Below are positions 12,788-43,440 of a stretch of 43,440 bases of DNA, piece after piece. Position 1 is the stretch's first letter. Each line of letters opens with the position of its first letter. A program made the position numbers and the translations under genes. The notes under the pieces are model-generated. The model saw nothing but the letters and a program-made list of their open reading frames with translations. It was not told where the DNA came from and did not search any database. Origin of the DNA: a virus; the IMG/VR virus record IMGVR_UViG_3300017783_000056, positions 1-43,440 of that record. The stretch is one strand, 5' to 3'.

Positions 12788-12852
12788 ATATTTATTTTGT
12801 TTACTGGTTATACTCTCAAGGCTTAGATTTGTTTCAGAGATAAATATAATAT

Positions 12853-13362: not shown

Positions 13363-13364
13363 TA

Positions 13365-15080
13365 TTACATTAATGCTTTAAATTTCTGAGCAATTGACAT
13401 ACCTTCAGTCAACTTAACTGTTTTAGGTAATTCAATAACGTTTTCAGTTAATTCATATCCGCCACAATCTGGTTCTGAACAAATATCTTGATCGTGACCT
13501 GAAATTGCAGCTAATTTTAAGATAGCATCCTTTTTACCAGTATATGTTAGTGTATCATATCCCATATCCCAATATAAAGAATCATCGCCCGTAGCAACTG
13601 CTACTTTTACACCGAATTCTTTAGCTTTAGATTTTAAATATGCGTAGTTATCTTCATCAGCGTCATATGCCATTAATTCAGGCAATGTAGCTTCTTCTAT
13701 GATTTCTAAACTTTCTTCAGTTACTCCGGTTCCTTTAGCTTTTGCTAATTTATCTTTTTCGGATTTTAAAGCTGACTGAATAATCCCTAATTTATCTTTA
13801 GAGCTTTTGTCTTTCTTATCTTTTAAAGCTTCAATAGCATCTTCATACTCTTTGATTTTAGCTTTATGCTTTTTTACTTCAGGAGTCTCTTCATTACCAC
13901 CGTCTTCTTTCTTACCTGAAACTCCACTTGGTTTTAAGCTAGCTGTTGTTTTAGCGGCTGCTATTTTATCTTTTAATTCTTTTACCTTTTCTTGGTCACC
14001 TTCTTTTTCAGCAGCTTTAAGGTCTAATTCTAATTTTTTTAGCTCAACTTCAGCTTTCTTTGGCCCACTTGTAGGTTGACCATTTGGTCCTTTTGGTAAA
14101 TCGTCGATTTCAGTTTTAACTTTTTGAGAAGCTTGTTTAATCTTTTCAACCTCCTCTTCTTTCTTGCCATCTTCTTCTTTTTTACCACCGTCTTCTTTTT
14201 TACCACCGTCTTCTTTCTTGCCACCGTCTTTTTTGCCACCGTCTTCTTTCTTGGCGTCTTCTTTAGATTTTTTAGCATTTGCATCCATTGCATCTTGAGC
14301 AGTTTTAGAAGAATTACCATCATCGGTTTTTGGAGCTCCTTCAGCTGGATTTTCTTTAGCGTAATCTTTTAGTGATTTACCATCATTAGCAATTCTGTCC
14401 TCTAAAGTTTCTATCTTTAATTTTAACTGCTTTGCTTCTTCACCTGAAGTTGCTTTCATTACAATTTTAGCTGCTTGTAGTTTAGCTTTATTTTTACCCG
14501 ACGTAACAATAAGTTTTAATCCTTGTGATATTGCTAATTCATCCATTCTAGCTGAAATAGCATCAGCTTGGTCTTTTAGTGCCTTGTTCTTTGCAGTATT
14601 TGCAGCGTCTAATGTAGCTCTTCTTTCGGTACCTTTACCTGAATCTGCATCAGATGCTTGCATTTTCTTTGCAAAATCTACATCATTGATAGATATTTGC
14701 ACTAAAGCTTTTTGATACTTTTTAAGATTGTTTTTAATCTTAGTGTATTTTATAGGGCTTTTAATAATATCAATGATTTTTTCATTTAACTCTTCATCTT
14801 CTTCTATTAGTTCTTCTAATAAAATTTCATATTCGTTAAAAGCTTCGTGAATATTTAAACCCTCTTTAATATTGTCTGATAACTCAGAAAGTCTTGTTAA
14901 AATAGAATCAACATCTTTTACGATTTCAGTTCTTAAAGTTTCTCCAGCAGCATCTTGAGCAGTTGCATCAACTGCAACAGAATTAGCTGTAGTAGGTGCA
15001 CTTGCTTGTGCATTTTGTTTATCTGATGCACTTGCTGAGAAGTCTTCAAATAACATTATCTTTTTAGTTAATTTCATCAT
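13365..15080 (-). CDS. Lysine-rich coiled-coil protein, probable internal head protein
   Basis: A 571-residue protein next to the major capsid gene. The N-terminus (MKLTKKIMLFEDFSAS) resembles capsid-targeting sequences of T4 internal proteins and contains L-F-E at residues 10-12, a possible gp21 cleavage site of the (L/I)-x-E type. Residues 50-230 and 310-450 are predicted coiled coil. Residues 274-310 are a low-complexity tract of KKEDGG-type repeats. The last 110 residues are a more globular domain with FGVKVAVATGDD, ICSEPDCGGYEL and a terminal EGMSIAQKFKALM. In T4 this position holds the vertex protein gp24, but no gp24 likeness is seen. Its own late promoter at 15111-15127 supports a virion or prohead role. 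Function unproven. Confidence 0.55.
   Translation of the reverse strand: MMKLTKKIMLFEDFSASASDKQNAQASAPTTANSVAVDATAQDAAGETLRTEIVKDVDSILTRLSELSDNIKEGLNIHEAFNEYEILLEELIEEDEELNEKIIDIIKSPIKYTKIKNNLKKYQKALVQISINDVDFAKKMQASDADSGKGTERRATLDAANTAKNKALKDQADAISARMDELAISQGLKLIVTSGKNKAKLQAAKIVMKATSGEEAKQLKLKIETLEDRIANDGKSLKDYAKENPAEGAPKTDDGNSSKTAQDAMDANAKKSKEDAKKEDGGKKDGGKKEDGGKKEDGGKKEEDGKKEEEVEKIKQASQKVKTEIDDLPKGPNGQPTSGPKKAEVELKKLELDLKAAEKEGDQEKVKELKDKIAAAKTTASLKPSGVSGKKEDGGNEETPEVKKHKAKIKEYEDAIEALKDKKDKSSKDKLGIIQSALKSEKDKLAKAKGTGVTEESLEIIEEATLPELMAYDADEDNYAYLKSKAKEFGVKVAVATGDDSLYWDMGYDTLTYTGKKDAILKLAAISGHDQDICSEPDCGGYELTENVIELPKTVKLTEGMSIAQKFKALM
14151..14261 (-). repeat. KKEDGG coding repeat
   Basis: Tandem 15-18-base units encode a KKEDGG/KKDGG/KKEEDG tract in the 571-residue protein. 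The unit is visible on the plus strand as repeated ccaccgtcttcttt blocks. Such tracts expand and contract by slippage. Confidence 0.85.
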
Positions 15081-28138: not shown

Positions 28139-29455
28139 TTATATACTGTGTAAATTAGAATTAGTAATATCGTCTGTTTCGACAAGTCTCATGTAATTCC
28201 AATTAATGTTTAACTTACATTTAGTTCCTTTACCTTCTCCATCTCTTATTTTGAGAACCTTTAACCAATACTCATTATTGGCTCTCATTAAATCATCTTG
28301 AATAATACCTAACATAACATCAGCTGTGTGTGAAAGACCTGCAGATTCTGCAATATCTGTCATTGTAATATCTGATGAATTATAGCCAGATCTGGTGATT
28401 TGTGTTGCTGTAACAATTAACCAATCGTTTCTAATACCCATAGCTCGAAGGTCTTCAGCGATTTGCTTAATCTTCATATAAGTATTTTCAGTATTTTGAT
28501 TTCTGTAATTTGCCAAAATATTAATATAGTCAACTACAACTGCTCCTATTTTAATTTGTCTTTCTTCTTCAATTTGACTAACGTATGCTTCAATATCTAA
28601 TACTGTTGCTTGCGATGTTGGAAATTGTTTAATAAACAGTTGGCCTGGAGGGGTAAAGCCATCTCCAACTGTTTCTAATTTTCTTTTAATAGAATCTTTA
28701 CTTTTTGCTTTTTCTGCATAATCATTGATATCAATGGTTAACAAATTTGAACCGATTCTTTTTACAAACTTGTGTGCTGCCATTTCTGCGGTAATTACTA
28801 CAGTATTGGTTCCCATTTTTACAAAGTTGGCAGCATCGTTTGCCAAGTAAATTGACTTACCGATATTCTGCTCACCTGCATAAACGACGAGGTTACCACC
28901 TTTGTCATAACCACCACCTAACATTCTATCAATAAAATTGTAACCTGTACTTACTTTTTCTGTTTCTCTTTGGTCGTGTGAATCGACATCGAAGAAGTCT
29001 AAACCTAAATCAGAATTAAAACTAAGATTATTTCTATCATTAATAAGACCTTTAACTTTAGTAACAATACTGTCTACATTCTCAGGAGTAACCTGTGTAG
29101 TCTTAATAAATTCTATAGTATCTACTAAAGAAGTGTCAAATGTACGCCATTTAATCCAAGATTCAGCGGTAGAAGTTAACCAATCTTCGTCATATTGGTC
29201 TAAATCAACTTCAAATAAAATATCTAATATATTTTCAGATATCTTTTCTTTAGCTCTTTGATTTCTTTGAGTTAATAGTGATAGGTTTTCTTTAGTTGGA
29301 GTTTCATTATATTTTGTATAGAATTGGTTAGATATTCTACTTAAAATATCGATCTCTTCAGATGTATAAAACCCAGCTTTAATGCTCTGTAAATATTTTG
29401 GCTTTGCTAAAGAAAGCTTGAAGAAAATCTTTTCAAAATCCTGTCCAAATTCCAT
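28139..29455 (-). CDS. gp41: Replicative DNA helicase gp41 (DnaB-like)
   Basis: A 438-residue hexameric helicase of the DnaB/RecA fold (T4 gp41 is 475). It unwinds the fork ahead of the leading-strand polymerase and cooperates with primase. Motifs: KVSTGYNFIDRMLGGGYDKG near residues 167-186, Walker A GEQNIGKS at 194-201, H1a-like ITAEMAAHKFVKR near 221-233, Walker B AVVVDYINILAN near 303-314 and VTATQITRSGY with the sensor Gln. No gp61-type primase is seen in the window. It lies downstream of uvsX, as in T4 (uvsX-40-41). Confidence 0.92.
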   Translation of the reverse strand: MEFGQDFEKIFFKLSLAKPKYLQSIKAGFYTSEEIDILSRISNQFYTKYNETPTKENLSLLTQRNQRAKEKISENILDILFEVDLDQYDEDWLTSTAESWIKWRTFDTSLVDTIEFIKTTQVTPENVDSIVTKVKGLINDRNNLSFNSDLGLDFFDVDSHDQRETEKVSTGYNFIDRMLGGGYDKGGNLVVYAGEQNIGKSIYLANDAANFVKMGTNTVVITAEMAAHKFVKRIGSNLLTIDINDYAEKAKSKDSIKRKLETVGDGFTPPGQLFIKQFPTSQATVLDIEAYVSQIEEERQIKIGAVVVDYINILANYRNQNTENTYMKIKQIAEDLRAMGIRNDWLIVTATQITRSGYNSSDITMTDIAESAGLSHTADVMLGIIQDDLMRANNEYWLKVLKIRDGEGKGTKCKLNINWNYMRLVETDDITNSNLHSI

Positions 29456-29501: not shown

Positions 29502-29801
29502 TTACCCAAATGGGTTTTCTTTAATTTTCCAAGATAATTTACCTGGAGTTTCATTGACACTTTCGATCAAATCCAATTTAAGTAGTTCTTCAATTGAATC
29601 TAATAAATGGTCTTCACTTGTTTCTGGAAACCTATAAGTTTTTAAGGCATGTAGAGTAAAATTACCCTTGTGTCTATCTGGCATTCTAACACATAGCTTA
29701 ACTTCAGCTAGTAATATGTCAAAAGATGTTGGATAATTGGGTAAGTCCTTTTCAATACCTAAAATGTATTTTATAGGTAACTTATCCTCATTAATTTGCA
29801 T
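29502..29801 (-). CDS. Hypothetical protein (99 aa) between uvsX and gp41
   Basis: A 99-residue protein overlapping the end of uvsX by 11 bases. It has a helix-rich C-terminal half (HLLDSIEELLKLDLIESV, about residues 70-87) followed by a KLSWKIKENPFG strand, which resembles a winged-helix end, but the N-terminal part is not clearly of that type. No family recognised. The overlap with uvsX and closeness to gp41 suggest a recombination or helicase accessory role, as for T4 gp40 or gp59 in name of location only; no sequence likeness is claimed. Confidence 0.6.
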   Translation of the reverse strand: MQINEDKLPIKYILGIEKDLPNYPTSFDILLAEVKLCVRMPDRHKGNFTLHALKTYRFPETSEDHLLDSIEELLKLDLIESVNETPGKLSWKIKENPFG

Positions 29802-30900
29802 CCTCTTCTAAAATTTCGTCTAAATCTATTTCACGCTCTTCTGTGTTGTAATTAAACACATGTTTAATTCTTGCCTCAATCTTTTCTAAAACCTCTTGAG
29901 TAAAGACTTTTTCTGAGAAGAAATCTTTGTTAGGTACTGATTCGTCTAAATGTTTACAAATCCAATTTCTTGCGGTCTTTTTAGGAATCTTTTCACCTTT
30001 TTCAATTACACCTTTAGTAATACCTATTTCTTCCCAATCGATATATTGTTCTAAACCAACATATCTGTTCATGCCCTTTGTAAAATGTAAATGGAATTTG
30101 ATATTGTGTGGTTTAGCAAATCTATTTTTATTTGGTTTTGCTGTAACAATAATACCTGCTTTTTCTCCACTAGACTCTTTAAGCTGTGCTTTGTTTAAGA
30201 ATAAAACAATCGATGCAGCATATTCTGGTCCTGTTCCACCACCAGCAACTTGTCTAGAAATAAAATCTTGAGTTTGGTATGTGTGATTAGTAAAAATAAA
30301 TGGAATCTTTAAGTCTGCCAATGGTGTCATAATAATTCTAAAAATAGATTTAAGAACTTTAGACCTTGTCATGTCAGCTTTTTCACTACCTGATTTTGCA
30401 TCTTCAATTTCCTTCTGTGTTGCTAAGTTACCTGCAGAATCAAGAATCATCATAACTTTTGGTGTTTTACCACCAATTCTTTTGATTTCTTGCATTTTGC
30501 TAGTTAATGTAGTAACTGAAGTTCTAAACTCTTGAACAGTATTGATTGGCTGATAGTTAACTTTAGATGTATCAATGCCAAACTTAATCATTTGGTCTTT
30601 ATCAACAGCAGCTTCTGAGTCATAGTAAATTACACTATATCCCATATCAATTGCTCTTTTAACTGAGTTTAAAACTAAGAACGTTTTACCAGTACCTGAT
30701 GGTCCTGCAATTGAACATGTTCTACTATTTGGCCAGCCACCAAAAAGCGAACCACTTACACATGCGTTTAAGTGATAATTACCAGTGTCAATCCACTCTG
30801 TAACCTCACTGAATGTAGAATTTTCCATAACTGAACCCATTGGATTCAATTGTTTTAATTCTGCATTTATGTCGTCAAAACTGAAATCTTTCTTTGCCAT
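29791..30900 (-). CDS. uvsX: Recombinase UvsX (RecA/Rad51-like)
   Basis: A 369-residue strand-exchange protein (T4 UvsX is 391). It coats single-stranded DNA and drives strand invasion for recombination-dependent replication and repair. Motifs: Walker A GPSGTGKT at residues 66-73, a SVIYYDSEAAVDKDQM stretch near 90-105, Walker B VMMILDSAGNL near 148-158, and FIFTNHTYQTQDFISRQVAGGGTGPEYAASIVL near 200-232 with the L2-type loop. The C-terminus is acidic (EREIDLDEILEEDAN), as in other recombinases. It is the last-but-three gene of the polC-uvsX-gp41 transcript. Confidence 0.94.
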   Translation of the reverse strand: MAKKDFSFDDINAELKQLNPMGSVMENSTFSEVTEWIDTGNYHLNACVSGSLFGGWPNSRTCSIAGPSGTGKTFLVLNSVKRAIDMGYSVIYYDSEAAVDKDQMIKFGIDTSKVNYQPINTVQEFRTSVTTLTSKMQEIKRIGGKTPKVMMILDSAGNLATQKEIEDAKSGSEKADMTRSKVLKSIFRIIMTPLADLKIPFIFTNHTYQTQDFISRQVAGGGTGPEYAASIVLFLNKAQLKESSGEKAGIIVTAKPNKNRFAKPHNIKFHLHFTKGMNRYVGLEQYIDWEEIGITKGVIEKGEKIPKKTARNWICKHLDESVPNKDFFSEKVFTQEVLEKIEARIKHVFNYNTEEREIDLDEILEEDAN

Positions 30901-31341: not shown

Positions 31342-32550
31342 TTAAAATAGTGCCGAAGCGTAAATTAGATTTGTATCTAATGTTTGCAATCCAATTGCTG
31401 TTAAAACTCTATTTAATGGGTCGATCATGGACTTTTCGAATTGAGTGTCATAATCTACCGGAGGAGCAATTTCATATGGATGCTCATTAGGCATATATGC
31501 ATAAACTTCTGATATGGGTGATTTACAGTTGTAAATTTTTAGTTTTTCACCATTACCAATGAGTTTATACTTATTTTTGTACTTCTTATTATTATTAAGA
31601 AGATAATTGTAATAACCTGCAGCTTTTACGTTAGCTGGACATTTTAGGCCAACTTGTAATTCTATTTGGTCATCTACAATATATTTGTCAATGTTATTAG
31701 TTCTACGATTAAAAGATATATCGTCTACGTCTATAAGAGCAAACTCTTTTTTTGTTTGTTTCATAAACTCAACTAAAGTTTGTAAATCTTTAGATGTTGG
31801 TGTAACTCTAGACTTAAATAAAATCTTAAGAGCTTCTACTAATTTTTCTCTTACAAATTTAGGCGTTGAAGATTGAATCGTATCAAATCCAATTGTTTTT
31901 ACTTTTTTCAAAGAAGGGTGTCGATCTGTTACTTCTAATTTATCATCCCATGCAATATTTTGAATGTATTTCTTTTTACTCATCCAAATACCATTGTAAG
32001 CAAGAGATTCTAGTTCAAATATTAAGAAATTATCTGTATTTCTTTTATCTGCATATTTTTCCATACATTTAACAATGTAATCCTTTAGTCTAAAAGCATA
32101 AAATGCTAAGATAAATTCATCAATTGTTAATTGCTTAGATTCGTCTTCCCAAATAATAGACTCATAAAGGTCTTGGAACTGAACATAACAAGAATCTGTG
32201 TCAATATAGATTACTGCAGGTTTTTCTATTTTACCTTTTACTTTAATACCAAATTGTTGGTGAACAGCAGTATCTTTATGCCAAAAATCATTAACATATT
32301 TGTTGAGTATTGATTCAGAATAAAGAATTGCATTTTTACCTTGTTTAGTAATAGATTCTGCAATATCGATGTTAAAGAAGTGAAACCATTTATTACCGAA
32401 TGCTCCATAGATAGAGTTAAGTGTCAACTTAACTGCTTGTTCATATGCAGTATATTTGGCAGAAAGCTGCTCGTAATGGTCTACGAGCAGCTTCGCCTCA
32501 TCATTAGATAATTCATCTATTGGTTTTTGTTCTAACCCCTTAATATCCAT
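31342..32550 (-). CDS. gp43B: DNA polymerase gp43, C-terminal half (split gene)
   Basis: A 402-residue protein holding the second half of a family-B polymerase. Motif B KLTLNSIYGAFGNKW is at residues 41-55, motif C YIDTDS at 115-120 with the catalytic Asp pair, and the thumb-type KKKYIQ and later Lys-rich segments follow. It lacks exonuclease and motif A, which are in the ORF at 36971-38374. The first 38 residues (IDELSNDEAKLLVDHYEQLS and on) are a helix that would continue the fingers domain, so this is a natural-looking start rather than a random internal one. The end, TNLIYASALF, could be the clamp-binding tail. The gene follows gp45 by three bases. Confidence 0.9.
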   Translation of the reverse strand: MDIKGLEQKPIDELSNDEAKLLVDHYEQLSAKYTAYEQAVKLTLNSIYGAFGNKWFHFFNIDIAESITKQGKNAILYSESILNKYVNDFWHKDTAVHQQFGIKVKGKIEKPAVIYIDTDSCYVQFQDLYESIIWEDESKQLTIDEFILAFYAFRLKDYIVKCMEKYADKRNTDNFLIFELESLAYNGIWMSKKKYIQNIAWDDKLEVTDRHPSLKKVKTIGFDTIQSSTPKFVREKLVEALKILFKSRVTPTSKDLQTLVEFMKQTKKEFALIDVDDISFNRRTNNIDKYIVDDQIELQVGLKCPANVKAAGYYNYLLNNNKKYKNKYKLIGNGEKLKIYNCKSPISEVYAYMPNEHPYEIAPPVDYDTQFEKSMIDPLNRVLTAIGLQTLDTNLIYASALF

Positions 32551-33962: not shown

Positions 33963-35798
33963 TTATCCATCACATGATAGGCAATCTGGGTCTATAGCTG
34001 CTTTTGCTATATCTCCTCTCAACACCGATTCTGTTCTCATATAATAAAGTGTTTTTACACCTTGTCGATATGCTTCTAAATGTACTTGGTTAATAAACTT
34101 AGGTTCAGCTTCTTTTGGAAATGCTAAATTTAAACTAACAGATTGATCGACATATTGTTGTCTTACGCCCGCTTGCTTTACTAAATCTAGTTGATTAATT
34201 TCTTTAAATGTTTTAAATACATTTTTAACAACAATCCATTTATCTTTTTGCATTTCATTAAGCGCATCGTATTTTGCTTTAGATATTACATTTTCTTTAT
34301 TTGTAATAACTGTACCCACTTCAACATAATAATCTTGCAAGAAATCTAAACCTTGTACTGAGCCTCCGTCTTCTAGAATTTTATTCCAAGTAGCCTTAGT
34401 GTCTTTGTTAATTATTTTTAAAACGCTTTCTAGTGTTTTATTTTTTCTAATAAATGTACCTTTAGCCGTTTGCTCTGTAAAAACATTGGCTGCCCATGGT
34501 TCAATACCTGGAGAAACATTGCCGCTTAATTTAGAATTAGAAACTGTAGGTGCAACCGCTCTTAAGTGAGTGTTTCTCATTCCAGTATCTCTACACCATA
34601 GTGGTTCACCAAATTCCAACGCCATATCCCTTGATGCTTTTTCTGTTTCTGTTCTTAACTGTTGAAAAATCTTACGAGTTTCAAATTGAGCAGAAAGGCC
34701 TTCAAATGGAATTCCTCTATCTTGTAAATATGTATGCCATCCAAGAACACCCAATCCAAGAGCTCTACCTTTCTCTGCAGATCTGATTGAATTTTCAAAT
34801 CCTCTCATAAATTTAGCCTTTTGAATAAATTCTTCAAGAACACCATCTAAAAACCAAGTTGCAGTATAAATAAGGTCGGTATCTTTCCACTCGTCGTATT
34901 TGGCTAAATTTACAGATGATAAACAACAAACAAAACTGTGATTTTCATCTGTATGTAGTGTAATCTCTGAACATATGTTCGTCATAAACACCTTTAATCC
35001 ATTTTTCTTGTAAGCATCCGGATTCTGACGATTGATATTACCTTTAAAGAAAATATATGGCTCGCCTGTTGCTCTACGTTTTCTTAAAACTGCAGCCCAA
35101 CGCTTTCTTGATTCTTTATCACCAGCTTCTACTTTTTGCATAAAACCATCTGGAACCACAACACATTGATGTAAGTTTAAAGATTGTCTATTTACATCAC
35201 CTTTAGGTTCTCTAATTTCTAGCCATTCCCAAAAATCATCATGTTCAATATCAATGTTAACTGATGCTGCTCCTCTACGCACAGAACCTTGATTGGTTGC
35301 CAATATTGTTGAGTCATAGATTTTACAGAAAGGTACAACTCCATCTGATGTTCCGTTTCCTTTAATTTGTGCGCCTGCTGGTCTGATTTGATTGATTCCA
35401 ATTCCAACTCCTCCTCCATGTTTTGCCAATAGCATCATTTCTAGGTTTTTAGCACCAATGTCGTGAATAGAATCAGCAACGTCGATACCAAAGCAAGAAA
35501 TAGGAAGACCTCTTTCTAAACCTGTATTTGATAAAACTGGAGATGCTAAATTTAACCAGCCTTTCCATATATAATCAAAAAACTTGCTAGCCATTTCTGG
35601 TTTACCAAGTCTTCTTGCAATTGTAGTTGCAACTCTCCAATAAGCGTCTTTTGGTTTCTCATCATAGTATAAGTAACCATTACTTATTGTTTTAACGTAA
35701 ATTTCAGTATTTGCCCATGTAGGAAAATCAACGCCAAGTTCCCATCCTAGTTCTTCGCCATGATTTACTACATTAGTTTGTTTTTTTGCCATGTTCAT
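33963..35798 (-). CDS. nrdA: Ribonucleotide reductase large subunit NrdA (class I)
   Basis: A 611-residue alpha subunit that makes deoxyribonucleoside diphosphates with NrdB. Active-site features: LPISCFG near residue 100 (first redox Cys), NICSEITL near 273-280 with the Asn-Cys-Glu catalytic triad, FVCCLSSVNLAKYDEW (second redox Cys), and a C-terminal CLSC pair for re-reduction by thioredoxin/glutaredoxin. It is shorter than T4 or E. coli NrdA (about 750-760) and starts near the 10-stranded barrel, so the N-terminal ATP-cone is absent and dATP feedback inhibition through that domain is unlikely. An alternative ATG lies two codons downstream. The gene follows nrdB with 13 bases between. Confidence 0.93.
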   Translation of the reverse strand: MNMAKKQTNVVNHGEELGWELGVDFPTWANTEIYVKTISNGYLYYDEKPKDAYWRVATTIARRLGKPEMASKFFDYIWKGWLNLASPVLSNTGLERGLPISCFGIDVADSIHDIGAKNLEMMLLAKHGGGVGIGINQIRPAGAQIKGNGTSDGVVPFCKIYDSTILATNQGSVRRGAASVNIDIEHDDFWEWLEIREPKGDVNRQSLNLHQCVVVPDGFMQKVEAGDKESRKRWAAVLRKRRATGEPYIFFKGNINRQNPDAYKKNGLKVFMTNICSEITLHTDENHSFVCCLSSVNLAKYDEWKDTDLIYTATWFLDGVLEEFIQKAKFMRGFENSIRSAEKGRALGLGVLGWHTYLQDRGIPFEGLSAQFETRKIFQQLRTETEKASRDMALEFGEPLWCRDTGMRNTHLRAVAPTVSNSKLSGNVSPGIEPWAANVFTEQTAKGTFIRKNKTLESVLKIINKDTKATWNKILEDGGSVQGLDFLQDYYVEVGTVITNKENVISKAKYDALNEMQKDKWIVVKNVFKTFKEINQLDLVKQAGVRQQYVDQSVSLNLAFPKEAEPKFINQVHLEAYRQGVKTLYYMRTESVLRGDIAKAAIDPDCLSCDG

Positions 35799-35811: not shown

Positions 35812-36816
35812 TTAATCAAATAAATCGTCTTCGTCCCAGTTTTCATCTTCACCTGCTTTTGCGTAATCAGTTGGTCTAACCGCAAAAAAGTCAGTGTGAG
35901 TATGACCACCTGTAAGGTGATAAAACCAATCTAACTCAGAAGCTTTATCTTCGCTAAACTCAAAAATAGAATCATAACCTAACTCCATTAATTTTTCATT
36001 AGTTCTTTTAGTAATAAAATGCTTAAGATCGTCAGCTTTCATATTATCTAAATCACCCTGTTCAAACATTTTATTAATAAACTTATGTTCCATGTCTTTC
36101 ATAAGTTTAGCTGCTTCTTTTACATCATTTTCTACAGATTGTTTCAGCTCAGGATATTCTTGACACATATGATTAAATAATTGACATCCCATTTTTGAAT
36201 GTAAAGATTCATCTCTTACTGACCATTTCATTTGTTGACCGATACCTTTAAGAAGGTTTCTCATTTGAAATGAATATAATACTGCAAATGAAGAATAAAG
36301 AGATACACCTTCTGCAAACGCAGAAAAAATAGCTAAAGACCTTGCAACTTCCTTTCTTGCTTGGGGATTTGTGGCCAAATCTTCATGTGTGTAATCTGCA
36401 GAAGTAGAAGTTAAAAGTTCAAATTTTTCAGCAATTGCTGGTTCATGAAGAAATGCTGCGAAATCTTCTAGACCCAATGTCTCGTTTAAATAAGAATAAG
36501 CTGTAGCGTGTATTGTTTCTTGAGAACCAAACATCATTGCCATTTGTTTGATTTCGTGTTTAGGAAACCATCTAGTTACCATAGTTGTCCAATAATCAGA
36601 TACTGCACATTCAGTTTGTGCAAAACCTAAAAGAATATTTCCTACGATATTCTTTTCATGTGGCATAAGATTTTCATTCCAATCCTTGACGTCGCCTTGC
36701 ATTGAAATTTCAGTGTGTAACCAAAAAGCTTGAGCTTGTTTTAACCAACCTTCAGTGTAGTACTCTGGGTACTCAAAAGGCTTAAATTCTATTCTTTCTT
36801 TAAAGAGTGATGACAT
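35812..36816 (-). CDS. nrdB: Ribonucleotide reductase small subunit NrdB
   Basis: A 334-residue beta subunit that holds the di-iron centre and tyrosyl radical. Ferritin-like helices carry the metal ligands: AQTECAVSDYW (first Glu), SQETIHATAYSYL (Glu plus His), FAEGVSLYSSF (Glu) and VRDESLHSKMGCQLFNHM (Glu plus His). The last acidic residues (DEDDLFD) probably bind NrdA. It is transcribed before nrdA, the reverse of T4 order. The 154-base gap upstream carries an inverted repeat and a TTGAAA candidate promoter. Confidence 0.93.
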   Translation of the reverse strand: MSSLFKERIEFKPFEYPEYYTEGWLKQAQAFWLHTEISMQGDVKDWNENLMPHEKNIVGNILLGFAQTECAVSDYWTTMVTRWFPKHEIKQMAMMFGSQETIHATAYSYLNETLGLEDFAAFLHEPAIAEKFELLTSTSADYTHEDLATNPQARKEVARSLAIFSAFAEGVSLYSSFAVLYSFQMRNLLKGIGQQMKWSVRDESLHSKMGCQLFNHMCQEYPELKQSVENDVKEAAKLMKDMEHKFINKMFEQGDLDNMKADDLKHFITKRTNEKLMELGYDSIFEFSEDKASELDWFYHLTGGHTHTDFFAVRPTDYAKAGEDENWDEDDLFD

Positions 36817-36970: not shown

Positions 36971-38374
36971 TTAGACCCTAAATTTTTTTTTAATTTCGTG
37001 AGCTTTCTCATAATATGAATAAGAAGTCTTTTTGTATTCTTTACGTTGTGCATAAAGGTCACTTAAGATTTTCTTAAGAATAGAATCTTCTTTTTTATAG
37101 ACTACTCCATTCTCACATACAATTACATTTTTATCCTTTCTTCGCTCAGCTATATCGATTTCGTTGACTTGTTCGACAAATGAATCTGGAGAAATATTAA
37201 ACTGTCTCATAATTGAAGGATATAGAGAAGCGAAATCAAAGGCGCTTACTCCACTATAATATCCAACAATCGGTTGTTTAACAAACGCGCCTTGAAACTT
37301 ACCGTCTTTTTTCGCGTCTTCTCTACCATATTCAATACCGATCTTTTTGTTTTGTTCTGCTAATTTTCTTGCAATTAACGATTCTGTTACTGCCACGGGA
37401 GACGCAGCTTTGTAAAGAGGCATTTTAGTAATAGTAGCAAGAGTTAATAGAACTTCCATCGATCTAAGTTGTTTATCTATATAGTAAACCAACACGGAGT
37501 CGACTACGTTATAGTAAACATACTTTTGAAAATCATTTTCATACAAATCTTGAAGTGAACCTGTATATTTGATTTTCTGTACATCCAATACTGCACCTGA
37601 TACAAAATCAAGTGAGTTGGATTCTTTTACAGCAACAGACCTATCATATTTGTCATAAAGTTGCATGTAATCTAAGATTCCCATATGAACTGGTCTACTA
37701 TCATTTCTATCTAACTGTCCAGTGATAGCCACCTCAGTCAGGTCGATTTGTAGTCTTTTACATCTATTAACGATATACTGCCAGTCATAGTTAATGAAAT
37801 TCCACCCTGTCATCATTGGGAACTTAGGTAAAAACTTATGCAAGAATGTATATAACATATTATATTCGTTATCGAATTTGTAATAGCTAAATTCCCAATC
37901 TTGGTCATAATTTTTCATATGTGCATTTGTATCGTCTTCAATCTTTTTAATTTGCTCTGAAGAAAGGTCTTCTAGACCTAATACAATTGCTTTTCTTTCG
38001 GGTGTAATAATGGAAAAAGTTAAGATTCTTGACTTAGCTTCTTCTGGTTTAGGGAAACCATCGACAATCTCTGTCTCAATATCGACAAAGTATGTTCTTG
38101 GCATATTGAATTCATAAATTTCTTCTCTATCCTTTTCAGGTAAACTGTCCATAAAATAAAGAAGAGAAAACTTATTAAATCCTCTTGACAAACTTCTCTT
38201 AAGTGGCCTCCCGTCCCAGTTTCTAACTGTACCATCTTTCCATTTGTCTTTTTCTTCAGTCACTACCCAATTTTGGAATTGGCTGACTGGATATCTTTTA
38301 AAAGAAACTTTACCTTCCTTATTGTAGTAGGAGATAATTAATTCTTTATCTGTTTGTTCAATGTCTAATAACAT
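36971..38374 (-). CDS. gp43A: DNA polymerase gp43, N-terminal half (split gene)
   Basis: A 467-residue protein with the N-terminal and proofreading exonuclease domains and the first part of the palm of a T4-type family-B polymerase. Exonuclease motifs: Exo I YFVDIETE (95-102, Asp98 and Glu100), Exo II NFINYDWQYIVNR (Asp197) and Exo III YYNVVDSVLVYY (Asp292). Motif A is DFASLYPS at 380-387. It stops inside the fingers domain after LYAQRKEYKK and a short helix (EKAHEIKKKFRV), before motif B. T4 gp43 is 898 residues; this half and the 402-residue ORF at 31342-32550 sum to 869. The two parts must associate to make one active site. The start overlaps the dUTPase stop by one base. Confidence 0.92.
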   Translation of the reverse strand: MLLDIEQTDKELIISYYNKEGKVSFKRYPVSQFQNWVVTEEKDKWKDGTVRNWDGRPLKRSLSRGFNKFSLLYFMDSLPEKDREEIYEFNMPRTYFVDIETEIVDGFPKPEEAKSRILTFSIITPERKAIVLGLEDLSSEQIKKIEDDTNAHMKNYDQDWEFSYYKFDNEYNMLYTFLHKFLPKFPMMTGWNFINYDWQYIVNRCKRLQIDLTEVAITGQLDRNDSRPVHMGILDYMQLYDKYDRSVAVKESNSLDFVSGAVLDVQKIKYTGSLQDLYENDFQKYVYYNVVDSVLVYYIDKQLRSMEVLLTLATITKMPLYKAASPVAVTESLIARKLAEQNKKIGIEYGREDAKKDGKFQGAFVKQPIVGYYSGVSAFDFASLYPSIMRQFNISPDSFVEQVNEIDIAERRKDKNVIVCENGVVYKKEDSILKKILSDLYAQRKEYKKTSYSYYEKAHEIKKKFRV

Positions 38375-38838
38375 TAATAGCCTCGGTTTTGTCTGTCATG
38401 ATTTTCTGCATTCTTTGCCATGTACAAGTTAACAATATCTTTAGCTGTCATTCCAATAGAAATTGCAAAATTCATATAAAAGTGCAATCCATCAATCCAC
38501 TCATAAAATAATTCTAACCTATCAGCCTCTGACAAATCTTCAACTTTCATATTAGCAGCATCTTTGTGCGTACCTTTCCAATATTTCCAAGCTGCTGAAC
38601 CAATGCCGTCATTAATGCCTCCAAGTGCATCAAACATTTCATTTAGTTCGTCTGACATTGCGTGTTTGTTTACACACCAAAAATCGGCTATCTCTTTAAG
38701 AGTCCAACCTGTAAAATCAAAACCTAAACGTTTTTGTAGTTCAATTTGTTTATTGTAAATCAAACCTAAAGTATCGTTGTCGGTATCGTAGAAGTTTGTA
38801 ACTTCTAAATCTGCACATTTGTTATCTGAATTTGCCAT
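38374..38838 (-). CDS. MazG-like all-alpha dUTPase / NTP pyrophosphohydrolase
   Basis: A 154-residue all-helical protein. Features: IELQKRLGFDFTGWT near residues 32-46, an acidic helix HAMSDELNEMFDALGG near 58-73, LFYEWIDGLHFYMNFAISIGM near 110-130, and the C-terminal LYMAKNAENHDRQNRGY, matching the K-x-x-x-N-x-x-R-type end of dimeric dUTPases. Such enzymes hydrolyse dUTP (or related NTPs) to the monophosphate with Mg ions bound by the Glu/Asp residues, supplying dUMP and keeping uracil out of DNA. It begins the polymerase N-terminal transcript and neighbours nucleotide-related genes. Confidence 0.65.
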   Translation of the reverse strand: MANSDNKCADLEVTNFYDTDNDTLGLIYNKQIELQKRLGFDFTGWTLKEIADFWCVNKHAMSDELNEMFDALGGINDGIGSAAWKYWKGTHKDAANMKVEDLSEADRLELFYEWIDGLHFYMNFAISIGMTAKDIVNLYMAKNAENHDRQNRGY

Positions 38839-38861
38839 ATATTTTTATTTGTATATTAATT

Positions 38862-39779
38862 TTATGAATTTACTGTGGGTTGTTTCATTTTTTCATCTCT
38901 TATTTCTCCCCAGTCTCTTCTAGAATCTGTAATAATTTTCGTATCTTCTAATTCTGGCTTTGGGTCTCCACCTACATTCCAAAACCAAGCACCTGGTGAA
39001 CCATGCTTTGTCATAAACTCCCATGCTTTAGCATCGTAATTCATAGCAGATGGAAACGGTGGATTATATTCTTTGTTGACATCTTGATTAAACGCTTTTG
39101 GATGAGACCACATCGTAGCCCTACCTCTTTCGCCGGCTTTTATATTTCTAGCAACAGCGACTGCATTAAATTTAGCGTCAGGCCAAGCTATTTGTAAAGA
39201 ACGTTGTAATACTCCAGTTGAAATAGCAGACCAAACTTCATCTGGATATCCATATTTTTCTGCTAAATCATACGCTACCTTTACCGCAGCTGCAGTGACT
39301 AGTTCATGTTTAAGTCCTAGTGGAATAAAAAACGCATTATTATCTTCTGCCCATTGTTTTGCGATTCTATTTAGATTTGGCATCGCCGCGACTCTTCTAA
39401 ATTTCATTTCTGCCCCTCTTTCAACACAAATAGCTTGATGATCGGAAATCTCTTTTTGAGATGGACTAAATAAAACTAATTTCTTATTATATTTTTTGGC
39501 TAAATATGCAAGTGAAATTCCAGCAAAACCATATCTCGGCTGTACGTATACTAAAGTATCTTTTGGACATGTTTGTACTAAAATATCTCCAAACCTACAC
39601 TTTGAACCAAATCCCATTAAGTCTTCTCTTACTACTTTAAATCCATCGTGGTCTACTAATTCCGGTGCAGGAAAAGGGTCAACCCAATCACCCGCAAGGT
39701 CCAACCATGCTTGTCGATTTGGCATCATTAAATTTATGTCTTGATTAAAAAGACTTTCAGTGTGTTTATTATGAGCCAT
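38862..39779 (-). CDS. Fold-type-II PLP-dependent-like enzyme
   Basis: A 305-residue protein resembling the tryptophan synthase beta / cysteine synthase / ACC deaminase fold. The stretch REDLMGFGSKCRFGDIL (51-67) matches the RED-L-x-G-x-K-x-R pattern in which the Lys (Lys60) would hold pyridoxal phosphate. QPRYGFAGISLAYLAKKYNK is a substrate-site region. SAISTGVLQRSLQIAWPDAKF (about 184-204) is where the phosphate-binding glycine loop should be. PPFPSAMNYDAKAW and GAWFWNVGG near the end recall phage and bacterial homologues of unknown substrate. It overlaps the nucleotidyltransferase gene by 11 bases. Substrate unknown; amino-acid elimination or replacement is the usual chemistry. Confidence 0.6.
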   Translation of the reverse strand: MAHNKHTESLFNQDINLMMPNRQAWLDLAGDWVDPFPAPELVDHDGFKVVREDLMGFGSKCRFGDILVQTCPKDTLVYVQPRYGFAGISLAYLAKKYNKKLVLFSPSQKEISDHQAICVERGAEMKFRRVAAMPNLNRIAKQWAEDNNAFFIPLGLKHELVTAAAVKVAYDLAEKYGYPDEVWSAISTGVLQRSLQIAWPDAKFNAVAVARNIKAGERGRATMWSHPKAFNQDVNKEYNPPFPSAMNYDAKAWEFMTKHGSPGAWFWNVGGDPKPELEDTKIITDSRRDWGEIRDEKMKQPTVNS

Positions 39780-40224
39780 ATTCGTTTGCTTTGTTTATCA
39801 ATTCAGAAGATGATTGTATTTTACCACCTCCAATATTCCATATCATATCTATGTTATACGCGCTACAAAAGCCCATTTCTGGTGTATTCTTATTTGTTCT
39901 ATCACCTCCATTTGCAAACGCAATAGAACGTTCAGGATAAAGAGAATGTACTCTCATAAGTAATTCAATTGCCGAACCAGCATCATCGTCCTTAAATGAC
40001 ATAACATCATCCACATATTTGAATGCTTCTAATATTTCGGCTCTTTCTGCAAATGACATAAATGCTTTACCCTTTTTATTAACTAACCATTGATTAGAAT
40101 TTAAGCCACATATAACTTTATGGCCCATGTTTTTAGCAGCTTTGAACATTCTAACATGACCTTTATGTACGGGGTCAAATCCTCCACTAACTACAACGAT
40201 GTCGTATTTTTTATTATCTTCCAT
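39769..40224 (-). CDS. HxGH nucleotidyltransferase (cytidylyltransferase-like)
   Basis: A 151-residue Rossmann-type nucleotidyltransferase. GGFDPVHKGHVRMFKAAK (14-31) has the HxGH nucleotide-binding motif; MSFAERAEILEAFKYVDDV near 56-74, a GGDRTNKNTPE stretch near 108-118 and GGKIQSSSELI (in place of the ISSTxxR signature) complete the fold. Relatives transfer CMP or AMP to phosphorylated sugars, alcohols or phosphopantetheine. I chose the ATG at 40222-40224 because it has an AATAAAA leader just after the upstream stop; an in-frame GTG at 40254 would add ten residues that overlap the upstream gene. Acceptor unknown. Confidence 0.75.
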   Translation of the reverse strand: MEDNKKYDIVVVSGGFDPVHKGHVRMFKAAKNMGHKVICGLNSNQWLVNKKGKAFMSFAERAEILEAFKYVDDVMSFKDDDAGSAIELLMRVHSLYPERSIAFANGGDRTNKNTPEMGFCSAYNIDMIWNIGGGKIQSSSELINKANEYGS

Positions 40225-40226
40225 TT

Positions 40227-41336
40227 TTATTCGTTTGGATAGTCTCTGCCCCACAAATATTTAGTTGTGTTAGCATTAACTAATATTTCTTTTTTTGGAT
40301 GTTTAGCTAAATTAAAGTTACCATCGAATATCCAAGTATATGGAATTCTCTTTGTAGGTGACTTAATGCCATGACTAATCGCAATGTGTTTATAGAAGAA
40401 ACATGTTTTATCTTCTACATTTAAATACTTTTGACTTTCCATTGGATTATTTGGATGATTTACGAGTACATCCATTTGTCTTAGCCATTCTTCAGCGTGT
40501 TTGTTTTCTGCAATAAATTGACCATCTTTGTCAATCGTGTATTTTACTTTTCCATTTAAATTAACTCCTCCAAATATTTGTTGCATGCCATCAAAGTGTC
40601 CAGTTCCTCCAAATAAAATAGATTCTGGGTCAACCAGATCTGGTCTACTCATTGCAACATATCTTGCTGTGTTTTTACATGGATATAATGGTGACCTAAA
40701 TCCTTGATGTTCTTTAAAATAAGCTTCTAATAATTTAGCAAATTCCATCATCGTATATGGTCTTTCTAAATCTTTAAGAATATGAACCATATCTTTTGCG
40801 GCTTTTTTAGGTCCATTAATTAACCAATCTTTGACAATAGTGCCCTTTGGATAATAGATTTGAAATAAATCATTTCTTGCATGTCTGTTTTCTACAAAAT
40901 GCGCCCTAGTCTTTTCTTCACCTTCATTAATTAAGCGAGTTATTGTACCCCAATGTTCATTTGAAAAAGAGAAAACAATGGTATAATAAAGTAGCTTCTC
41001 TAAGTCTGTTTCTTTTTGCATCATATAACAATAAGGATGCTCGTGCCAATGTAGTCTATGGGAAAATATCTGATAGTCTTCTAACAAAAGTTTATCTTCT
41101 CTCTTATCAAACTCGTGACAAAATTCAAAAAACTTTGCTAGCCTCATTTCTTCTGACCAATCTTTCATCCAACTTTCTGCTGGCTTTTTCTTTTTAAATG
41201 CAATATCTGTAGAGGTACCGTCATATGTGATATTTCTATACTCTTGTGTAACATCATCTTCAAACGTAAAGAGCGCCTCTTGTTGAGGTGTTATTACCTT
41301 TGGTTCTTTTATTATCTCTTTTATATTTTCACTCAT
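40227..41336 (-). CDS. Uncharacterised protein, paralogue A of a tandem pair (369 aa)
   Basis: A 369-residue, largely helical, His/Trp/Tyr-rich soluble protein. It shares a clear pattern with the next gene to the right: A-K-D-M-V-H-I-L-K (about residue 180), a Glu-rich helix, EHQGFRSPLYPCKNTARYV, then PDLVDPESILFGGTG. The HEHPYCYMMQKETDLEKLLYYTIVFSFSNEHWG stretch has a layout I loosely associate with alpha-glutamyl/putrescinyl thymine pyrophosphorylase-like proteins of base-hypermodifying phages, but that is a weak memory match and should not be taken as an assignment. It overlaps its paralogue by four bases (ATGA), suggesting equal production and perhaps a heterodimer. Confidence 0.55.
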   Translation of the reverse strand: MSENIKEIIKEPKVITPQQEALFTFEDDVTQEYRNITYDGTSTDIAFKKKKPAESWMKDWSEEMRLAKFFEFCHEFDKREDKLLLEDYQIFSHRLHWHEHPYCYMMQKETDLEKLLYYTIVFSFSNEHWGTITRLINEGEEKTRAHFVENRHARNDLFQIYYPKGTIVKDWLINGPKKAAKDMVHILKDLERPYTMMEFAKLLEAYFKEHQGFRSPLYPCKNTARYVAMSRPDLVDPESILFGGTGHFDGMQQIFGGVNLNGKVKYTIDKDGQFIAENKHAEEWLRQMDVLVNHPNNPMESQKYLNVEDKTCFFYKHIAISHGIKSPTKRIPYTWIFDGNFNLAKHPKKEILVNANTTKYLWGRDYPNE

Positions 41337-42541
41337 ATTGATGCTACCTTTTTTTTGTACTCTTCAACTGATACTCCAGCGCTTTGTAATATTTTATCGT
41401 CTGATGGAAATGAAGTCATTCCATTAAATGTTTCTACAAGCCCTAAATCTAACATTGCTTTTTGTCTACCGAATGGATGGTCTTTGATTTCAGAAGAATT
41501 CCAAAGAGTGTCCATATTAATGTGTGCATAATCTGCACCCGGTCTTAGATAGTTTTCTATCCATCTAATAAAATCACAAGCAACATCTTCTGCGTTATAT
41601 GGTAAAGACCCTGTGTCTTCATATATTTTGTTCATAACAGCATCTAAGAATTCTTCACTTTTTTTGCCTTTATTTTCTATTGGGTCTGCAAGATATCCAA
41701 TACATTCTACCGCATTTGTACCATAATAAAACATTGATTCTCTATTCATGAAATCTGGAAACCAATCACATACATCTGCAATAACTGCAGCATATTGAAA
41801 TCTATAAGCTCTTAGACCATTGTCTGCATTCCACTTAAACATCCACTCGCCCAATTCTCTTAAATCTTTTTTGCCACCCTGTCTTAAAAAGTTTGCCATG
41901 TCTCTGGCCATTCTTGGTGCGAATTCACATAAGAAATAATCTCCACCTCTTTTGTAAACATATTCTGGTTTACTAAAGTTTGCCATGCCTACAAAAGAAT
42001 CTTCATTTACTTCTGGCTTTGGTGGTTTTGGAAATGCAGGAAATTGATAACCAACTGAAGTATAAAATGGTGTTGGATGATATTTTACCTTTTCACACAT
42101 ATCTTCAATGGTATCACAGTCATATAAATCAAATAAGATTGTGTTATGATATCCCGATGGCTTAGTTGCGTAATTAATTGCAGAGCCACATACTCTATGT
42201 AAAATAAAAATATAAAGCCATTCTTCTAATCCAAAAACATCTCTTTTATTTGACCAATTAGTAGCAACTTCCTTTCTTTGTGTAGTATAAAGTCCAGCTT
42301 GCATTCTAGACCAATATGGATGTTCTTTTGACCATCCATAAAAACAATCATTTACTATTTGGGAGAAACCAGCAAATTTACGCTCTACTACATCGTATAG
42401 TTCGATGTGGTGCATAAGTTCATCTCCAATATTTGATTCTGCATGTGGGACATGACCTAAATTACTTAAATCTTGTTGTTTTTGTGCTAAATCAAAATAT
42501 CTTAAAAATTCTTCGTAGTATTTGGTTGTTTTTATTTGCAT
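41333..42541 (-). CDS. Uncharacterised protein, paralogue B of a tandem pair (402 aa)
   Basis: A 402-residue helical protein. Landmarks: YWSRMQAGLYTTQRKEVATNW near residues 76-96, a conspicuous ILHRVCGSAINYATKPSGYHNTILFD segment near 112-137, a Pro-rich link (FPAFPKPPKPEV), then ARDMANFLRQGG, GLRAYRFQYAAVIADV and PDFMNRESMFYYGTNAVECI, which align with the same order in the adjacent 369-residue protein. No Walker, Rossmann or metal motif is obvious. The HR-x-x-GS-x-x-x-Y type segment recalls DNA-base-modification enzymes found in phages, but this is a hypothesis. It is encoded with the PLP-like and nucleotidyltransferase genes. Confidence 0.55.
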   Translation of the reverse strand: MQIKTTKYYEEFLRYFDLAQKQQDLSNLGHVPHAESNIGDELMHHIELYDVVERKFAGFSQIVNDCFYGWSKEHPYWSRMQAGLYTTQRKEVATNWSNKRDVFGLEEWLYIFILHRVCGSAINYATKPSGYHNTILFDLYDCDTIEDMCEKVKYHPTPFYTSVGYQFPAFPKPPKPEVNEDSFVGMANFSKPEYVYKRGGDYFLCEFAPRMARDMANFLRQGGKKDLRELGEWMFKWNADNGLRAYRFQYAAVIADVCDWFPDFMNRESMFYYGTNAVECIGYLADPIENKGKKSEEFLDAVMNKIYEDTGSLPYNAEDVACDFIRWIENYLRPGADYAHINMDTLWNSSEIKDHPFGRQKAMLDLGLVETFNGMTSFPSDDKILQSAGVSVEEYKKKVASI

Positions 42542-42542
42542 A

Positions 42543-42692
42543 TTATTGTATGATTTTCCAACTAAATGCAGGTCTATTTCTTTGATATTGCCCCATAGAC
42601 CACTCTATGTCTTTGGTTTCTATTTCAATTATTTCAACTTCTTTTGATGTTGCGTAAGTAATTTCTATTTTAAATTTTTCGTCTAGTTTCAT
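42543..42692 (-). CDS. Small conserved-looking protein (49 aa)
   Basis: Read directly from the sequence: 49 residues beginning MKLDEKFKIEITYATSKEVE and ending with IEWSMGQYQRNRPAFSWKII plus Q. It looks like a short beta-alpha protein. The W-S-M-x-Q-Y-Q-R-N-R pattern seems familiar from small ORFs in other T4-like phages, but no function is known to me. It starts two bases after the upstream stop (TAATATG) and ends one base before the next start region, fitting a tight operon. Confidence 0.6.
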   Translation of the reverse strand: MKLDEKFKIEITYATSKEVEIIEIETKDIEWSMGQYQRNRPAFSWKIIQ

Positions 42693-42693
42693 A

Positions 42694-43440
42694 TTAGAAT
42701 AATGACATTGTTTGTTTGATTAATTTTTTATTTTGACAATTATTTACTAAATCCCATCTGTAAAATTCTCTAGCAATATGAACTGATTTTGGTTTTTCCA
42801 TAACATCAAACGTTAATTCTCCAATTGCGTTAAAATAAACCTCAGGGTGTTTATATGATTTCCATCCATGTTTTTCACACATATCATCAATACCTGAATT
42901 AATTTCTTTAACTAGTGCTGTTCTTTCTGACCATGTGCCAGTAAAGGGTGTGCCTTTATAGTAACCTGTTTTGGGTAAAGAACGTGATTCATTTTCAATA
43001 GGTAAAGTGTGAACCACTTCAATTTCTTCTACACCATTTTCTTGAAGTTTTAATAATTCTACTTCATAGTTAGCTAAAAGTGTTTTTACAGAGGCCGATG
43101 GATTATCTTGTCTCATTAAGTGATGACGAACATCAATATTACCCATATAAACTCTAAGTGATTTAATCCATGGATAAACATAAGTATCTAAACCTCTTTT
43201 AAGAGCTCCGTGCATAGTCAAGCCATCGTGTCGTTGAGTCATATAACCTGGTGTGTATTGACTAAACGAATGGCTATCACCAAAACAAAGCTTATCTGTT
43301 TTTTGAATACAATCAATTCTAGGAATATTATTCGCACAAATTTCTTTAATGTTGTCGATTTTATCTTCAATCGTTTTGAATAAATCCGTACCTGTGTGTA
43401 ATCTTTGATCGATTAATGTACCAATACATGGCATGTCATG
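42694..43440 (-). CDS. SGNH-hydrolase-like protein (5' partial possible)
   Basis: The reading frame stays open to the right edge, so the true start may lie outside; the last ATG inside is at 43432-43434 (246 residues from there). CFGDSHSFSQYTPGY (residues 50-64 from that Met) matches the block I Gly-Asp-Ser motif with nucleophile Ser54. MGNIDVRHHLM (97-107) matches the block III Gly-x-Asn. FDVMEKPKSVHIA (209-221) could be block V with the catalytic Asp and His. SGNH enzymes cleave esters or acyl groups on carbohydrates, lipids or other small molecules. The block I motif is some 50 residues in, so an N-terminal extension or domain is likely. It ends in TMSLF. Confidence 0.5.
   Translation of the reverse strand, partial: HDMPCIGTLIDQRLHTGTDLFKTIEDKIDNIKEICANNIPRIDCIQKTDKLCFGDSHSFSQYTPGYMTQRHDGLTMHGALKRGLDTYVYPWIKSLRVYMGNIDVRHHLMRQDNPSASVKTLLANYEVELLKLQENGVEEIEVVHTLPIENESRSLPKTGYYKGTPFTGTWSERTALVKEINSGIDDMCEKHGWKSYKHPEVYFNAIGELTFDVMEKPKSVHIAREFYRWDLVNNCQNKKLIKQTMSLF

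Follow-up and report, generated by a model that had tools for sequence, protein, structure and literature searches.

The window analysed here, 43,440 bases long, is the entire IMG/VR virus record IMGVR_UViG_3300017783_000056, judged from the genes it carries to come from a T4-like phage. Its last stretch (positions 38374-43440) holds a compact block of genes encoding a T4 gp56-type pyrophosphatase, a pyridoxal phosphate (PLP) enzyme, a nucleotidyltransferase, two proteins referred to here as B and A, and an SGNH-like protein. Our analysis indicates that an uncultured T4-like phage probably uses this block for the decorating steps of a DNA-hypermodification pathway, most likely on 5-hydroxymethylcytosine (hmC). 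DNA hypermodification as such is known from phages, and what is new in this case is a transferase and PLP machinery that apparently works on hmC.

The predicted folds of A and B, together with their linkage to the other genes, suggest a transferase step. AlphaFold (AF2) models were built for A from 23 sequences (predicted local distance difference test, pLDDT, 71.8; predicted template-modelling score, pTM, 0.74) and for B from 29 sequences (pLDDT 84.3, pTM 0.83). Among the solved chains that were re-aligned, both models have as their top match structure 8z2n, the 5-phosphomethyl-deoxyuridine (5-PmdU) glycinyltransferase PUGT of phage PaMx11, with Z 9.4 over 208 residues at 3.8 Å for A and Z 9.3 over 227 residues at 4.3 Å for B. 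The next match of A, at Z 7.2, is a Pyrococcus protein of unknown function, followed by 8-oxoguanine DNA glycosylases, and that of B is the queuine-salvage DUF2419 at Z 6.9. In BFVD, the top matches are proteins of uncultured phages named amino acid:DNA transferase in UniProt (56% identity for A and 53% for B), and B further matches an A-type protein (1.5e-4) and an aGPT-Pplase1 protein (2.2e-4). Matches of B to the helical domains of 5-hydroxymethyldeoxyuridine (5-hmdU) kinases in the same database are weak (0.035-0.075), and those of A to kinase-type proteins are not significant (E 1.9 and 4.1).

A and B are linked to a known family by comparison of these predicted folds only. Pfam gave nothing of note for either protein, singly or across 23 A and 29 B members, nor did PDB sequences; no PHROG family was matched at a convincing level, tblastn against 50,697 phage records found no match, and hhalign found no link to HMUDK profiles, broader families included. 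An E-x3-C pattern lies near the end of the core in both proteins (E318/C322 in A, E308/C312 in B) and resembles the E-T-x-x-C of eight ADDT proteins when compared by eye, an alignment that hhalign did not recover. The sequence-only reading of this block had described A and B as a paralogue pair sharing an HR-x-x-GS-x-x-x-Y segment. They are at best very distant paralogues, with a BLASTP E of 0.05 and hhalign values of 0.0011 from the side of B (best unrelated control 0.043) and 0.0073 from the side of A (where an unrelated control reaches 0.01), and the segment is present in A (HRVCGSAINY) and not in B (HRLHWHEH). In IMG/VR, A was confirmed in 91 stretches and B in 415 of 448, the best 80 of each being used; the two scans relied on different patterns, so that these totals are not comparable.

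The PLP enzyme provides the link to known hypermodification by sequence. It had been described as an amino-acid-type PLP enzyme, which agrees with a fold-II (PALP) protein bearing a GSKxR site, although the Pfam PALP match (E 6.5e-6) lies below the curated cut-off. BLASTP relates it to the PLP protein of phage M6 (E 8e-4 over 261 aa), which adjoins ADDT, and the two proteins have a common ending, FP ... YD-x-KAW ... FWN-x-G. Profile searches of the proteins of the block against base-modification families, which had been proposed alongside the earlier description, matched the PLP profile to four M6-type sequences with E 2.3e-8 (hhalign, 95% probability, 218 columns), or 4e-10 with the broader family; one cysteine-synthase-like control sequence reached 0.0014, solved cysteine synthases 0.008 or worse and unrelated controls 0.40 or worse. 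The same profile matches the PLP proteins of Erythrobacter and Microcystis phages at E 7e-41. These belong to the same family as the window enzyme but, unlike it, are fused to or lie beside an N6_N4 DNA-methylase fragment: an 812-aa protein of Erythrobacter phage ZS04 (L161:2326-4764) has N6_N4_Mtase and PALP matches by hmmscan, the relative in Erythrobacter phage R6L is fused to a DNA methylase by annotation, and that of Microcystis phage Mae-JY30 follows a gene matching N6_N4_Mtase. A feature resembling phosphoadenosine phosphosulfate (PAPS) reductase is also found near the ZS04 fusion, which may be a separate DNA modification system. Relatives of the PLP enzyme occur in at least 530 IMG/VR stretches, of which the best 80 were used.

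The conservation of the module was assessed around A. We collected 212 A loci, several contigs being fetched more than once, which form 81 clusters at 99% identity and 18 at 80%. Across the 81 clusters, whose counts include contigs too short to show neighbours, the PLP gene lies within 5 kb of A in 72, the SGNH gene within 6 kb in 73, and B is found in 48. A well-flanked set comprised the 123 loci whose contig extends 3 kb or more to both sides of A, some contigs being counted repeatedly, and here the genes within 5 kb of A are PLP (121), SGNH (121), gp56-type (98), B (82), LOG-like (28) and gp42-type (6). Based on these neighbour counts, A, PLP and SGNH form the core of the module, B is common but optional, and the nucleotidyltransferase is a local accessory that is not conserved with it. 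Locus L077, with A and SGNH and without B and PLP, is an exception. The HxGH nucleotidyltransferase named in the sequence-only reading is indeed present in the window as a CTP_transf_like protein; it was found within 5 kb of A in none of the 123 well-flanked loci and in 1 of the 81 clusters, and among the loci examined occurs only in L008/L082 (one contig) and L190, a distribution on which it was rejected as a core enzyme.

Other genes recur near A in some carriers. A gene of the LOG/Lysine_decarbox family is often close by and in L009 (12351-13025) stands between B and PLP. Genes for the glycine cleavage H protein are found at L141:3655-3999 (Pfam GCV_H 8.7e-25), between the dCMP deaminase and A, and at L138:550-891, which is a local and possible hint at glycine as the donor. 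In L186, a contig binned into a metagenome-assembled genome and carrying the module, a C5-cytosine DNA methylase gene (12353-13552, Pfam 1.6e-17) directly follows SGNH.

The identity of the modified base was approached through the nucleotide enzymes. The first gene of the block, previously labelled dUTPase-like, does match Pfam dUTPase_2, but its identity is that of a T4 gp56-type dCTPase/dUTPase. BLASTP aligns 96 aa with T2 gp56 at 46% identity (E 1e-29), a profile of the 49-sequence family matches T2 gp56 with E 4e-26 over 133 columns in hhalign (0.021 or worse for four small phage proteins used as single-sequence controls, one of them a Kuttervirus dUTPase), and T2 gp56 and the window protein match the same three PHROGs. 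Since all three comparisons place it in the gp56 type, this gene is a T4-family member, and the statement that the set lies outside the T4 core does not hold for it. In T-even phages, gp56 clears dCTP and thereby lets hydroxymethyl-dCTP take over.

A thymidylate synthase/hydroxymethylase homologue and a 5-hmdU kinase, which the earlier description had proposed to look for beyond the right end of the window, were sought in relatives, where a hydroxymethylase appears as an Asp-type enzyme. A gp42-type gene stands no more than 8 kb from A in 10 of the 81 clusters and 6 of the 18 broader ones. Asn at the key position of thymidylate synthase reads uracil, and the Asn/Asp difference corresponds to the choice between uracil and cytosine; a comparison of 16 distinct carrier contigs, with a partial gene of G025 set aside, showed Asp at this residue in every one. 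The same holds for gp42 of T2 and of Aeromonas phage Aes151, whereas M6, SPO1L3 and a Kuttervirus have dUMP hydroxymethylases with Asn there. Of 12 large records, which may be fragments, six have PF00303 matches, all canonical ThyA or Asp-type and none the dUMP-type (Asn) hydroxymethylase, although the gene of G008 is split over the ends of the record with the motif in one piece only. Canonical thymidylate synthase occurs in four of the 12, and the 5-hmdU kinase domain HMUDK_hel (PF18723) scores above cut-off in none. Two weak HMUDK_hel matches in L158/L159 were not accepted as a kinase, as they fall in a 608-aa open reading frame (ORF) without a Walker A motif. Cytosine is thus more likely than thymine, given the gp56-type dCTPase in the window, the dCMP-type hydroxymethylase in relatives and the lack, among these records, of both a dUMP-type hydroxymethylase and a kinase above cut-off.

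In several relatives the module and the gp42-type gene are close neighbours. The order in L074 is gp42, a 163-aa gene, a 118-aa gene, dCMP deaminase, A, B, PLP, SGNH, uvsX, a 107-aa gene and gp41, so that the module occupies the place of b-gt in the T4 order 42, b-gt, segA, uvsX, 40 and 41. L187 has a gene of the 118-aa type followed by gp42, the deaminase, a small ORF, A, PLP and SGNH, with no B; L143 has gp42, two small genes, A, PLP, B, SGNH and uvsX; and in L259 and L261 gp42 lies approximately 3 kb past PLP. A DUF1599/NMAD1 label was considered for the 118-aa gene near gp42, for which Pfam gave no match.

The third core member had been read as a GDS-type hydrolase, and the GDSH segment is present. 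Its relatives measure 339-394 aa, as judged from 79 clustered ORFs of which some may be truncated. Seven diverse members all keep GDSH, GNID-x-RHH and SVH unchanged; the window protein has no Pfam match and no relevant PDB match. Relatives were found in 43 of the 50,697 phage records, namely 38 Aeromonas, three Tenacibaculum and two Stenotrophomonas phages. The SGNH profile matches residues 1-337 of the 795-aa ORF233c of Aeromonas phage 44RR2.8t with E 1.6e-51. The ORF233c-type proteins of 44RR2.8t, 31 and UP87 are SGNH-like along this part, as the window protein is, and differ from it in being longer, with a C-terminal part that gives a sub-threshold HMUDK_hel match (E 0.0036; 0.0022 in the UP87 homologue); against A, B, ADDT and HMUDK, hhalign found nothing better than E 0.03 for the C-terminal part of the 44RR protein. 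No A, B or PLP match was detected by tblastn in these three phages. The linkage and the 44RR fusion hint that the SGNH-like protein perhaps takes part in the same pathway. Its N-terminal part also aligns with T4 beta-glucosyltransferase (hhalign E 0.0037, 67 columns), at a probability of only 9%, and that enzyme is not among the five PDB sequence matches obtained for the protein at E 10; we treat this as a weak hint and make no claim that the glucosyltransferase is its parent.

Phages 44RR and 25 each encode a canonical thymidylate synthase as well as a gp42-type protein with the Asp motif. The sections covered of an earlier comparison list genes 42 and 56 in 44RR, 31 and 25 and no known glucosyltransferase (PMC2993671). 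In phage 25 (L262:3413-5594), the SGNH gene follows genes for a UDP-galactopyranose mutase (Pfam GLF 5e-54) and a glycosyltransferase-like protein without Pfam support, and there may be a furanosyl decoration of hmC in that phage. A sodium:solute symporter gene (L163:4021-5544, Pfam SSF 6e-53) stands ahead of the SGNH-fusion gene in 44RR2.8t.

A series of steps can be proposed from these relationships. The first two steps have clear homology behind them: dCTP would be destroyed by the gp56-type enzyme, and hydroxymethyl-dCMP, the source of hmC for the DNA, would come from a gp42-type enzyme that was found in relatives and not in this fragment. Once the DNA has been replicated, the helix-hairpin-helix (HhH)-fold protein A, often with B, would act on hmC in it and join the 5-methylene to an amino acid or amine. 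The M6 PLP enzyme probably remodels a DNA-linked amino acid, and by homology the PALP-fold enzyme of the module would then do likewise, with the SGNH-like protein belonging to the same reaction series and perhaps activating or finishing the group. The product would probably confer resistance to host nucleases or hide the DNA from host defences. The substrate (hmC in DNA), the nature of the group as an amino acid, the order of the steps and the biological use are what we infer here. A wider proposal, which we put forward tentatively and at rather less than an even chance, is that an uncultured and widespread T4-like group has an amino-acid-derived hypermodified hmC instead of cytosine, made by a kinase-free variant of the thymine pathway with the SGNH-like protein in place of the kinase. 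The SGNH-fusion gene of 44RR2.8t and 31 would then be a version of this in a single protein, and would supply the hmC-modifying enzyme that these phages lack so far.

Several observations weigh against modification of hmC by this module. The fold tool itself warns that mainly helical models with Z under about 13 may share an arrangement only. ADDT (PF18724) was unmatched at E 1 in the 23 A and 29 B members and found in none of 16 large records, and hhalign to ADDT gave E 0.31 for A and 0.08 for B (0.32 and 0.09 with broader sets). A gp42-type gene was found in five of the 16 large contigs; the 11 that showed none include three of 150-183 kb (G002, G003 and G009), which may be incomplete. The 43-kb window, itself a fragment, showed none either; phrog_160 was matched in 7 of 29 records, a set overlapping the 16. 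No kinase or other activating enzyme was identified. Gene 56 is also reported from T4 relatives that have no gene 42, in the sections covered of the comparison cited above (PMC2993671). Moreover, gene 42 sits near polymerase, uvsX or gene 40 in T4 and Aes151 anyway, so part of its linkage with the module could be inherited gene order.

The nearest competing explanation is that thymine is hypermodified through 5-hydroxymethyluracil exactly as in M6, ViI and phiW-14. The best structural and PLP relatives do come from thymine-hypermodifying phages, and several of these operons contain a dCMP deaminase (by Pfam in L074 and by tblastn in others), which feeds dUMP. We nevertheless consider it unlikely, given that the linked hydroxymethylase is of the dCMP type, that the window carries gp56 and that neither the Asn-type enzyme nor a kinase match above cut-off appeared in the 12 large records. 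The PUGT-like predicted folds and the M6-type PLP enzyme support the earlier suggestion of an amino acid placed on a DNA pyrimidine, as the better of its two readings, with the base shifted from thymine towards cytosine. It is likewise improbable that hmC ends up carrying a sugar or acyl group, with the SGNH-like protein central and A, B and PLP making or finishing a small side group. The gene neighbours of SGNH in phage 25, a gene that separates SGNH from A in L079-L081 and whose Galactosyl_T match (E 2.4e-4) stays below threshold, and the glucosyltransferase alignment speak for such a group; the models of A and B best match an amino acid transferase, and a Galactosyl_T-like gene lies within 5 kb of A in 7 of the 123 well-flanked loci, other glycosyltransferase families not having been searched over all loci.

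That A and B are HhH-fold glycosylases or nucleosidases, serving base excision, queuine-type salvage or attack on host DNA and not transfer, seems very unlikely. The structural rows below PUGT, at Z of about 6-7, are indeed 8-oxoguanine DNA glycosylases, the Pyrococcus protein and DUF2419, but PUGT stands above them for both models, and the steady partnership with PLP and the hydroxymethylase in some lineages fit modification better than excision. We give hardly any weight to a nucleotide-activated metabolite or surface decoration, the other earlier suggestion, which leans on the nucleotidyltransferase: this enzyme is of the heptose/cytidylyltransferase type and present in the window, and its near absence from the other loci speaks against such a pathway.

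The gene layout of the window is given in the table. Six minus-strand ORFs were counted in 38374-43440, not the seven claimed before, and they are packed, with overlaps of 1 base between the polymerase gene and gp56, 11 between PLP and the nucleotidyltransferase, 28 between the nucleotidyltransferase and B and 4 between B and A, and gaps of 23 bases from gp56 to PLP and 152 from A to SGNH. Minus-strand ORFs of at least 150 aa, counted from Met, cover 96% of 38374-43440, and in none of 500 first-order Markov resamples of this region did such ORFs of at least 150 aa occur. The SGNH gene is cut at its 5' end because the record stops at 43440.

Table. Genes of the block and other T4-type genes in the window.
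Feature	Position	Strand	Evidence
SGNH-like protein (GDSH ... GNIDVRHH ... VH), 5' end cut, core member	42694..43440	-	Phrog_13881/17781 (unknown function), profile
Protein A, 402 aa, core member	41333..42541	-	AF2 model best matches amino acid:DNA transferase PUGT
Protein B, 369 aa, optional member	40227..41336	-	AF2 model best matches PUGT (HhH-glycosylase-like)
HxGH nucleotidyltransferase, CTP_transf_like; GTG start or ATG at codon 11	39769..40254	-	Pfam 4.4e-15
PLP fold-II (PALP) enzyme, phage DNA-hypermodification type	38862..39779	-	Pfam, BLASTP, profiles
T4 gp56-type dCTP/dUTP pyrophosphatase, 154 aa	38374..38838	-	BLASTP, hhalign, PHROGs, Pfam dUTPase_2
N-terminal half of split family-B DNA polymerase (gp43A type)	36971..38374	-	Pfam DNA_pol_B and exonuclease, phrog_2062
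NrdB	35812-36816	-	Pfam Ribonuc_red_sm 4e-58
NrdA	33963-35798	-	Pfam Ribonuc_red_lgC 2e-87
C-terminal half of split DNA polymerase	31342..32550	-	phrog_1918, E 7e-70
UvsX-like recombinase	29791..30900	-	phrog_97, E 3.5e-61
gp41-type replicative helicase	28139..29455	-	phrog_19, E 9.6e-63

The two polymerase halves are set apart by NrdB, NrdA and two further genes; gp43 is likewise split (gp43A/gp43B) in Aes151, where it adjoins gp42. A small secreted barrel-like protein of 138 aa (L004:18487-18903) recurs beside nrdA in some carriers and looks Bacteroidota-like by eye, which may be a hint at the host.

DNA decorations of the amino-acid type are known from thymine, and the known hmC decorations of T4-like phages are sugars. 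If the proposed pathway is correct, a chemistry thought to be bound to thymine extends to cytosine and is found in numerous environmental phage contigs, and it would provide candidates for a question raised in 2010, namely how 44RR, 31 and 25 treat their DNA; as these three phages are cultured, the SGNH branch can be tested directly. We recognised no amino-acid-modified hmC from phages in the literature within our coverage, from which most subscription papers fall out and which includes sections of PMC9599517, PMC11411939, PMC6449724, PMC2993671, PMC6024577 and PMC8056088. The last of these tabulates modification proteins of T4 relatives and allows for a still unknown one in some phages, and the sections covered do not name a transferase of the A/B type (PMC8056088).

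Compared with known systems, the module shares with the thymidine hypermodification of M6, PaMx11, ViI and phiW-14 the PUGT-matching models, a related PLP enzyme, a hydroxymethylase in relatives and an operon-like packing. Those pathways comprise ADDT/PUGT, a PALP-type PLP enzyme in M6, the 5-hmdU kinase and dUMP hydroxymethylase. The module differs from them in the dCMP type of its relatives' hydroxymethylase, in the lack of a kinase above cut-off in the 12 records, in A and B being too distant for sequence profiles and in its SGNH-like partner. The kinase of the thymine pathway phosphorylates 5-hmdU in DNA ahead of amine transfer, according to the sections covered (PMC6449724), and thymidylate synthase together with aGPT-Pplase1 in pelagiphages is read, in the part of that study considered, as thymidine hypermodification (PMC9599517). 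With the hmC pathway of T4 and T2, the module has in common the gp56 and gp42 types and, in some relatives, a position between gene 42 and uvsX, the b-gt place in T4. That pathway consists of gp56, gp42, gp1 and the alpha- and beta-glucosyltransferases, and RB69 makes arabinosyl-hmC. In contrast, the core described here is without a clear glucosyltransferase and has transferase-like and PLP proteins instead. RB69 carries its own hmC-sugar module between polymerase and uvsX, as stated in the sections covered (PMC6024577), a site close to that taken by the present module in some of the relatives.

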